From assembly GCA_024403995.1 (NCBI GenBank), contig JAKSQT010000006.1:1-62307 (forward strand): DNA of 62,307 nt, given 5' to 3'. Both the position numbers and the translations under genes were made by a program. Under the pieces are notes generated by a model, which searched no databases, was not told the DNA's origin, and worked only from the letters and a program-made list of their open reading frames with translations. Below are positions 1 to 16,797 of this stretch, piece by piece. The stretch is from Ruminococcus sp. GTDB taxonomy: Bacteria > Bacillota > Clostridia > Oscillospirales > Ruminococcaceae. The number at the start of each line of letters is the position of its first letter. Position 1 is the stretch's first letter.

Positions 1-11
1 CAGGGGATTTG

Positions 12-37
12 GGGACGTCGAGGACGCCGTCCCCTAC
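12..37 (+). repeat. REP-like 26-bp unit (copy identical to those inside the RAYT gene)
   Basis: This imperfect hairpin begins GGGACGTCGAGGACGCC and ends in CCCCTAC, so read on the other strand it starts GTAGGGG. The same 26 bases recur exactly at 16392-16417 and, inverted, at 16212-16237. A GTAG tetranucleotide at the foot of a hairpin is the hallmark of REP sequences processed by RAYT transposases in enterobacteria. Its role here is inferred from that resemblance. Confidence 0.7.
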
Positions 38-269: not shown

Positions 270-348
270 GGGAGTCCGAGGGCGGACTCCCCTACGTCAT
301 ATTAATATCCCGACACAAAAACGTAGGGGATGCCGCACTCGGCATCCC
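270..348. repeat. Inverted pair of REP-like units (REPIN-like)
   Basis: Two 26-bp hairpins face each other, 270-295 (GGGAGTCCG / CGGACTCCC then CTAC) and 323-348 (GTAG then GGGATGCCG / CGGCATCCC), separated by 27 bp. Both end in the same CTAC/GTAG tetranucleotide as the copy at 12-37 but have different stem bases. The pair lies just downstream of carB and could also help end its transcription. Nothing else is seen in positions 1-365. Confidence 0.65.
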
Positions 349-14083: not shown

Positions 14084-16012
<1,929 letters not shown>

Positions 16013-16015
16013 TTT

Positions 16016-16537
16016 TTACCTCCATGTATTCTGATCAAATATATTATTCAGCCAATTTATCGGGTTATTGTCAATATATCTGCATATTTCGGTGTATTCC
16101 TTTTCACTGCGGATAATTCTGTCGTAATATGAACGCTGCCATATTGAGAAACCTGTTTTCTTGTTTGTAAATCTTTTAAATGCTGAAATCAATGACGGAA
16201 TCGCAGAATTTGTAGGGGACGGCGTCCTCGACGTCCCGCCCGCTGATGCATTTTCATGGCATATAAAAACAATCATATGCACATGGTCAGGCATAATTAC
16301 AAATTTTTCAATTTTAATATCATGATAAACGAAATTAATTTCATTTATCTGGTCATTTACAATTTTTCCGATATCCGTTAATATTACATTTGGGACGTCG
16401 AGGACGCCGTCCCCTACGCCTTTTATTTCCGACAAACAATAATTTTTATCCGCCGTACAGACCGTAATGAAATATCTGCCATTGCGTGAATAATCGTAAT
16501 TTTTAAGGCGGATATCCTTTCGTTCAGGATGGTTCAT
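16016..16537 (-). CDS. REP-associated tyrosine transposase (RAYT, Y1/HUH family) inside the gyrase operon
   Basis: This 173-residue single-strand DNA transposase-like protein has the IS200/Y1 layout: YSRNGRYFITVCT near the start, the HUH metal motif in FVIMPDHVHMIVF (about residues 79-91), and WQRSYYDRIIRSEKEY (about residues 134-149), which supplies the catalytic Tyr. RAYTs act on REP hairpins with a GTAG foot. Two exact 26-bp REP-like units lie inside this gene in opposite orientations and are translated in frame (GVGDGVLDVP and GGTSRTPSPT). Its ATG overlaps the remB stop (ATGA), and its TAA lies in the gyrB ribosome site, so it is fitted into the operon without spare bases. remB and gyrB are normally neighbours in Firmicutes. 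Confidence 0.88.
   Translation of the reverse strand: MNHPERKDIRLKNYDYSRNGRYFITVCTADKNYCLSEIKGVGDGVLDVPNVILTDIGKIVNDQINEINFVYHDIKIEKFVIMPDHVHMIVFICHENASAGGTSRTPSPTNSAIPSLISAFKRFTNKKTGFSIWQRSYYDRIIRSEKEYTEICRYIDNNPINWLNNIFDQNTWR
16212..16237 (-). repeat. REP-like 26-bp unit inside the RAYT gene (copy A)
   Basis: On the plus strand it reads GTAGGGGACGGCGTCC and ends CGACGTCCC, the exact reverse complement of the units at 12-37 and 16392-16417. In the RAYT frame it encodes GTSRTPSPT, between the HUH motif and the C-terminal helix. Confidence 0.8.
16392..16417 (+). repeat. REP-like 26-bp unit inside the RAYT gene (copy B)
   Basis: It is identical to 12-37 and inverted relative to copy A. Read in the RAYT frame it encodes VGDGVLDVP, upstream of the HUH motif. 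The spacing between the two copies is 154 bp. Confidence 0.8.
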
Positions 16538-16797
16538 TCCATACCGCCGCCCGATTGAAGCCTTTTTCTCAGCGTAGATGCAGAAAGCTGCGAAATATAG
16601 ACCTTTTCCCTGCCGTTTTTCATGATGATTATGAAGCTTTTCGGCATTTCGTATGTAGTATAGACACAGCGTTTTTCCTTCTCGACACGTTCAAGAAGTT
16701 TTTTTGTGCATTTTTCGACCGTGGTATTCTCGATATCGAAAATCCCGACAATATCCCTTGTATCCACGGAATAGCTGTTGCCGATGTGCAGGTACAT
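16534..16797 (-). CDS. remB: RemB/YaaB-like protein (DUF370)
   Basis: This 87-residue protein matches the DUF370 family: MYLHIGNSYSVDTRDIVGIFD at the N-terminus and KSFIIIMKNGREKVYISQLS in the second half. The family includes RemA (a DNA-binding matrix activator) and RemB (YaaB) of Bacillus; remB sits between recF and gyrB there as it does here. It is one base away from the recF stop and overlaps the start of the RAYT gene by 4 bases. Confidence 0.85.
   Translation of the reverse strand: MYLHIGNSYSVDTRDIVGIFDIENTTVEKCTKKLLERVEKEKRCVYTTYEMPKSFIIIMKNGREKVYISQLSASTLRKRLQSGGGME

Follow-up and report, generated by a model that had tools for sequence, protein, structure and literature searches.

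A clade of RAYT transposase genes with an inverted pair of REP units inside the coding sequence

In a clade of REP-associated tyrosine transposases (RAYTs) from Ruminococcus and many other Clostridia, the transposase gene contains two inverted copies of a REP unit within its own reading frame. The position of this pair is conserved in the clade, and both arms keep GTAG and the stem and change together between lineages. RAYTs, REPs and REPtrons with flanking REPs are already known; our literature search found no description of a RAYT with an internal cognate REP pair. The explanation that we prefer, and consider probably right, is a domesticated single-copy RAYT with its cognate REP pair in its own coding sequence, in REPIN geometry around the HUH segment.

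The RAYT gene of the window and its REP units

The window is the whole stretch of 62,307 nucleotides of Ruminococcus sp. DNA that was analysed. The features discussed here, in window coordinates, are:

16016..16537, (-): RAYT (Y1/HUH REP-associated tyrosine transposase), a single ORF of 173 aa, on homology evidence
16392..16417, (-): REP unit 1 inside the RAYT gene, the earlier of the two in gene order, with its GTAG on the coding strand; translated as VGDGVLDVP
16212..16237, (+): REP unit 2 inside the RAYT gene, inverted but identical to unit 1, with its GTAG on the template strand; translated as GTSRTPSPT
16277..16285, (-): HUH motif codons (H85-V-H87), between both REP units; H85 and H87 invariant in 55 aligned homologues
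16076..16078, (-): codon of Tyr154, presumably the catalytic tyrosine; invariant in the 55 homologues and aligned with Tyr115 of 4er8
16534..16797, (-): upstream gene, which we take to be remB/DUF370; its stop overlaps the RAYT start (ATGA)
14084..16012, (-): ORF that we name gyrB from its sequence; begins 3 bp past the RAYT stop codon
12..37, (-): third exact copy of the unit, near the contig edge; no ORF of at least 100 aa found through it
270..295, (-): unit resembling a GTAG-hairpin, its stem of another family
323..348, (+): likewise resembling a GTAG-hairpin with a stem of another family, and lying tail to tail with 270..295

An earlier note had called the gene a RAYT, and this was borne out: among PDB entries the family profile matches E. 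coli TnpArep best (4er8, E 9.5e-13), with the runner-up at 9.8e-5. The window protein itself scores 22.1 bits with PF01797 (Pfam Y1_Tnp; cut-off 23) and 65.6 bits with NF047646; because the curated cut-off of 80 for the latter is missed, we regard it as a divergent RAYT member whose name rests on the remaining criteria. NF047646 matches 55/55 homologues and transpos_IS200 only 13/55, and judged by sequence the window protein is nearer to TnpAREP than to IS200/IS605 transposases. An IS200/IS605 insertion sequence was rejected as an identity for the locus, the gene being single copy with its hairpins inside the ORF. The genome of the window gave one RAYT match, so this is the sole copy found there; some other genomes of the genus have at least two. 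gyrB adjoins the RAYT in 17 further homologue loci, marking a stable locus.

The 26-mer GTAGGGGACGGCGTCCTCGACGTCCC is exact at both internal positions and at 12-37. GTAG faces outward at both internal units, with the HUH codons between them. The earlier note had described this translated, exactly inverted pair, the third identical unit and the two units with different stems, and all five were recovered. The tail-to-tail dimer at 270-348, near the window start, consists of members of other REP families. The window contains 7 GTAGGGG sites where 1.63 would be expected, and 0/100 shuffles reach 7.

The reading of the units as insertions depended on their being repeated outside the window, and they are. 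We counted 43 exact copies of GTAGGGGACGGCGTCCTCGACGTCCC in the 2.58-Mb genome (0 for the backwards control), possibly a lower bound since several contigs of the assembly end at or beside a REP unit (window 1-37; L009, L025, L026) and the repeats probably broke the assembly. Only 6 additional places lie within 3 mismatches of the unit. Folded as ssDNA, GTAGGGGACGGCGTCCTCGACGTCCC gives GTAG and a hairpin (-9.8 kcal/mol, z -3.0) whose stem includes one G.A mismatch, and each of eight different units of the clade folds with GTAG ahead of an 8-9 bp stem (z -3.0 to -5.6). With GTAG, a hairpin, many copies and mostly intergenic positions, the window units are, by these sequence features, REPs. At 17/30 unit loci of the same genome a similar partner lies about 54 bp away, tail to tail. 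When 30 of the 43 copies were taken as loci, 6 were too close to contig ends; of the 24 copies that could be tested, 0 lie inside an ORF of at least 100 aa. The RAYT is thus an exception among the tested copies and not one of many tolerant hosts, and the suggestion of the earlier note that units spread into tolerant protein loops generally finds no support at these loci.

Conservation and joint change of the internal pair

Our genus search gave 47 RAYT matches in 27/60 genomes, of which 30, the window included, were taken. The pair is present in 25 of these 30 ORFs and in all 24 of at least 450 nt (a few of them with an in-frame stop). Of thirteen further genus matches, 10 have two GTAG units that are spaced as expected and belong mostly to other families, and the remaining 3 are fragments that lack the pair. 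The 80 named loci are mostly from Clostridia, with single members from other phyla. They were ranked by similarity to a query that holds the loops, so the 60/80 with an inverted pair scoring at least 14 (2/800 among codon-shuffled ORFs) probably overstate the frequency of the pair. Fragments counted, 85 of the 110 ORFs examined have the pair. Among the named loci is the RAYT of Ruminococcus flavefaciens SAb67 (L062), with 74-89% of its 16-mers common to two genus RAYTs, an overlap that by itself points to Ruminococcus as the probable genus.

Twenty of the 80 named RAYTs have no clear pair, so the pair is dispensable in places. By eye, these loci include some with no recognisable unit (e.g. L103, L105, L107, L113, L128), some with a single unit (e.g. 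L125, L133, L136, L140) and some with two diverged units (e.g. L082, L089, L109, L124); the others are ambiguous cases and one broken frame, L131. Had RAYTs without REPs kept the same protein segments, the insertion reading of the earlier note would have failed; by eye, those without a recognisable unit have other peptides at those places. Aligned at the 26-bp edges, pairless relatives show loops that are shorter or unrelated, with no exact edge.

Within the 85 paired genes the arrangement is uniform: the HUH motif lies between the arms in 85/85, both arms occupy the same two loops in 81/81 alignable genes, both start with GTAG in 80/85, and the usual reading frame is used by 83/85 first arms and 77/85 second arms. 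The arms are spaced 131-245 nt apart (median 155). No unit was found within 500 bp outside the gene for the window RAYT, which rules out flanking REPs as the real ends there; where that flank was available, 72/85 paired genes likewise show no outside copy within 500 bp, and 13/85 have one.

Other RAYT groups are built differently. In a phylum sample searched with a general RAYT model, 91/249 genomes matched, and among 30 loci from the matches listed the internal pair was found in 0/30 (highest score 12); 12/30 have an inverted repeat scoring at least 20 whose arms flank the gene. In other Bacillota, the longer RAYTs (L143-L168, of about 210-350 aa) are often bordered by inverted repeats containing GGGGAC, similar to those reported for TIRYTs. 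Inside the E. coli rayT ORF we found no GTAG, no CTAC and no inverted pair.

Several genus loci merit separate description. L045, L047, L049 and L050 form a second genus RAYT group with its own unit families, U5 and U6, and a stable housekeeping neighbor downstream, which we take to be a threonyl-tRNA synthetase gene. In L053 and L054, with U3 units, the reading frame is lost at or soon after the second unit. The second RAYTs of genus genomes, L221-L230, ten matches in all, have paired GTAG units, most of other families, e.g. GTAGGGGCGCATTCCGTGCGCCC; several RAYTs, each with an internal pair of its own, can therefore be present in one genome.

The main rival to the preferred explanation is passive insertion, in which REPs entered two tolerant loops by chance or because the enzyme acts near its own gene, were homogenised by gene conversion with genomic copies, and have no function. 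Homologues with zero units, one unit or decayed units exist, pair presence changes at least 18 times (a minimum count) on a quick 100-row tree, 2/85 first and 8/85 second arms are off frame, and REPs inside many unrelated ORFs are listed in the accessible part of PMC3733652, all of which fit such a history. It would not readily produce the same two positions and the inverted orientation in proteins about 40% identical, the retention in every genus ORF of at least 450 nt, or the absence of units from other ORFs of at least 100 aa at the 24 testable genomic loci. The recurrence at the same two places in those 24 genus ORFs and in 60/80 named loci means that the pair is not a recent accident, and we consider passive insertion rather unlikely.

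The arms also change together. Across the 85 paired genes, the two arms of one gene match at 22.98/24 positions and arms of different genes at 13.68; the within-gene sum is 1953 against a maximum of 1288 in 10,000 permutations, and 1907 against 1276 in 5,000 permutations once 3 near-duplicates are dropped (83 genes). The units form 22 clusters, and a quick tree from which the loop columns were left out shows at least 27 cluster changes (again a minimum). Arm-to-arm mismatches number 42/335 in the apical loop, 38/1436 in the stem and 4/340 in GTAG. In the second RAYTs L223 and L227 the arms differ by paired changes that preserve each hairpin.

Mismatches of this kind bear on the molecule in which the hairpins would act. 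Under mRNA-level autoregulation, the translation or decay of the RAYT transcript would be controlled by units that fold within it or pair with each other across it. That REPs form structures in RNA is known, and both arms lie in coding sequence, where pairing over 26 nt would be possible. On the GTAG strand the stem wobbles, G.T to A.C, stand at 12/2 in arm 1 and 14/1 in arm 2, with G.A and a few others besides, in a scoring that penalised A.C above G.T equally in both arms and with shared arm descent as a second caveat. An mRNA hairpin would predict the reverse bias in arm 2, whose GTAG strand has G.T and not A.C, so that A.C would stand in the mRNA; the pattern fits ssDNA of the GTAG strand rather than mRNA. 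The clustering of mismatches in the apical loop of each single hairpin and the retention of a single unit in some genes likewise speak against pairing in a transcript. Control at the mRNA level therefore seems unlikely to us, and a presumed nuclease substrate encoded within its own enzyme gene remains the preferred reading.

Cognate units in genomes and exchange at the gyrB locus

Genomes usually, not always, carry the unit found in their own RAYT. Any of U1, U2 and U4 was present in 25/27 RAYT-positive and 5/33 RAYT-negative genomes of the genus. Among the 27 RAYT-positive genomes, in which related genomes are not independent, carriers of a unit exceed non-carriers (Mann-Whitney, U1 p 0.03, U2 p 0.007, U4 p 0.0004; the U2 test counts G032 as a non-carrier, though its second, broken RAYT has a U2 pair). 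U4 counts are 110, 72, 60, 42 and 24 in genus carriers and at most 27 elsewhere. The share of a genome's tested units that belongs to its own RAYT is 0.55 against 0.27 permuted (19 genomes, p 5e-5). Counts in 48 of the 80 genomes behind the named loci gave 6/6 carriers against 3/42 others for a first pattern, and 7/7 carriers, two of them with decayed or one-armed pairs, against 8/41 others, one with 32 copies, for a second. All named-genome carriers have at least one copy outside their own RAYT.

The enrichment in RAYT-carrying genomes that the earlier note proposed to look for was seen for five of six unit patterns and failed for U6, where carriers are not clearly above non-carriers (p 0.07, 27 RAYT-positive genomes only): outside the RAYT, the carriers G010, G031 and G032 have 1, 3 and 4 copies and the non-carriers G017 and G012 have 26 and 18. 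Single genomes are exceptional too. U2 (39) exceeds the own U1 (32) in G044, U4 (22) exceeds the own U2 in G057, and G045 has just 1 U2 outside its own RAYT. Second RAYTs were considered as the source of the excess units in G012, G044 and G057 and rejected, the ones fetched carrying still other units. G017, G044 and G034 hold dozens of copies of units absent from their examined RAYTs. Such orphan units may have been left behind by earlier RAYT alleles, or may be the substrates of a RAYT that escaped detection.

Gene conversion between the two arms only, unrelated to RAYT specificity or genomic REPs, could by itself account for arm-to-arm identity. It leaves unexplained that the internal unit belongs to the genomic REP family enriched in carriers, and for that reason we hold it to be very unlikely as a full account.

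The gyrB locus, aligned for 17 homologues, shows what is exchanged. L032 (U1) and L035/L037 (U2) are 95-97% identical in their flanks and 52-53% in the RAYT core, identity persisting to the start codon and resuming for the final 114 nt of the gene. At this one chromosomal locus the RAYT core has been exchanged together with its pair. In 16 alleles, unit distance tracks core distance given flank (partial r 0.76, p 1e-4), in part through linkage since the units lie inside the core, and does not track flank distance given core (-0.17, p 0.97). The genome counts are independent of this physical linkage. For the swapped cassettes, genomic U1:U2 is 22:1 in G047 and 10:15 in G043, as expected (p 4e-5), and 4:1 in G045, contrary to expectation. 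U1 arms are 96-100% identical and the segment between them 67-76%. Selection on the two loop peptides, with DNA identity incidental, is barely credible in view of this difference: the frame common to 83/85 first and 77/85 second arms would suit it, yet the two peptides, encoded by opposite strands of the unit, are unrelated, so that protein selection cannot easily couple the arms, which still vary in step.

We compared 14 elements of G047 with G043 and G045 in 24 comparisons. U1 is kept in all three genomes at L187, and at L181 a pair is kept in G043, not G045. At several other sites the G047 element is missing and a different sequence stands in its place; none of the eight comparisons printed base by base showed a clean empty site. 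At L179, G043 has U2 where G047 has U1, but within a different element. At two sites the element is shared but its unit differs, at 3/26 positions that are the same in both cases; one of these units stands beside a near-identical right flank, and both have a short insertion or deletion immediately to their left. These sites hint, weakly, at in-place change of units. G047 has head-to-head REP dimers with GTAG outside. Many of its U1 copies (L171-L190) have a common long right flank, as in a larger element, and others are joined head to head to a different unit, either GTAGGGGACGCCGCCCTCGGCGTCCC or GTAGGGGCTGGCGTCCTCGACAGCCC.

Comparison with known systems and the proposed role of the pair

Palindromic inserts read in frame are known from the RPE of Rickettsia, where they occur in many unrelated genes. 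The clade units resemble these and other ORF-internal REPs, as covered in the accessible part of PMC3733652, in being palindromes that are translated; unlike RPE-type inserts, they occupy two fixed sites in the gene of the cognate transposase and co-vary as a pair. As far as the accessible sections of PMC8266576 and PMC2817692 go, RAYT/TnpAREP REPtrons are single copy and housekeeping-like, with enzyme and REP co-evolving. The clade shares with them, as in E. coli rayT and its GTAG REPs, a Y1/HUH protein, a single copy and GTAG-hairpins genome-wide. It departs from them in the place of the pair, which is inside the ORF, whereas the REPtron's REPs are described next to the gene (PMC8266576, PMC3733652) and none lies within 500 bp of the window gene. 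TIRYTs and TIRtrons, in the same portion of PMC3733652, also combine a RAYT-like protein with an inverted pair, but their terminal repeats flank the gene. REPINs, according to the accessible text of PMC3116915, likewise have two inverted REPs as their unit; the clade pair differs in spanning the HUH-coding segment of a transposase and in being translated. Nor is the segment from unit to unit of the RAYT dispersed as a REPIN would be, since it has one match in its own genome.

With the REPs inside the gene and no copy within 500 bp outside it in 72/85 cases, the simplest account is that the gene carries a matched copy of its own substrate. The RAYT locus can be read as a REPtron turned inside out, with enzyme and cognate REP pair in one heritable cassette. 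By analogy with its family, the RAYT would bind and cut GTAG-hairpins as ssDNA. Keeping the pair within the gene would couple enzyme specificity and substrate in that cassette, and whenever an allele was swapped or specificity had drifted, dispersal or exchange of REPs by the RAYT would bring the genomic REPs and the internal pair back into agreement. Self-cutting or self-binding may also limit RAYT expression. The pair may serve in self-targeting, in autoregulation or as a master copy. The last is a tentative proposal that we think possible and on balance doubtful: a new cassette would bring both specificity and target, the enzyme would then rewrite or reseed the genomic REPs, and the older layers would record past swaps.

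According to PMC8266576, the way in which TnpAREP spreads REPs has yet to be worked out. In this clade the presumed substrate is internal, and the pairing of enzyme and REP becomes legible from sequence in many Clostridia, giving a natural cross table of enzyme alleles against substrates in which change of REP family can be set against a fixed locus, gyrB. The pair also offers a clean case in which one stretch of DNA is both protein code and, presumably, a nuclease hairpin, on both strands of one gene. It may help to explain how RAYT-type enzymes and their scattered target repeats stay matched.
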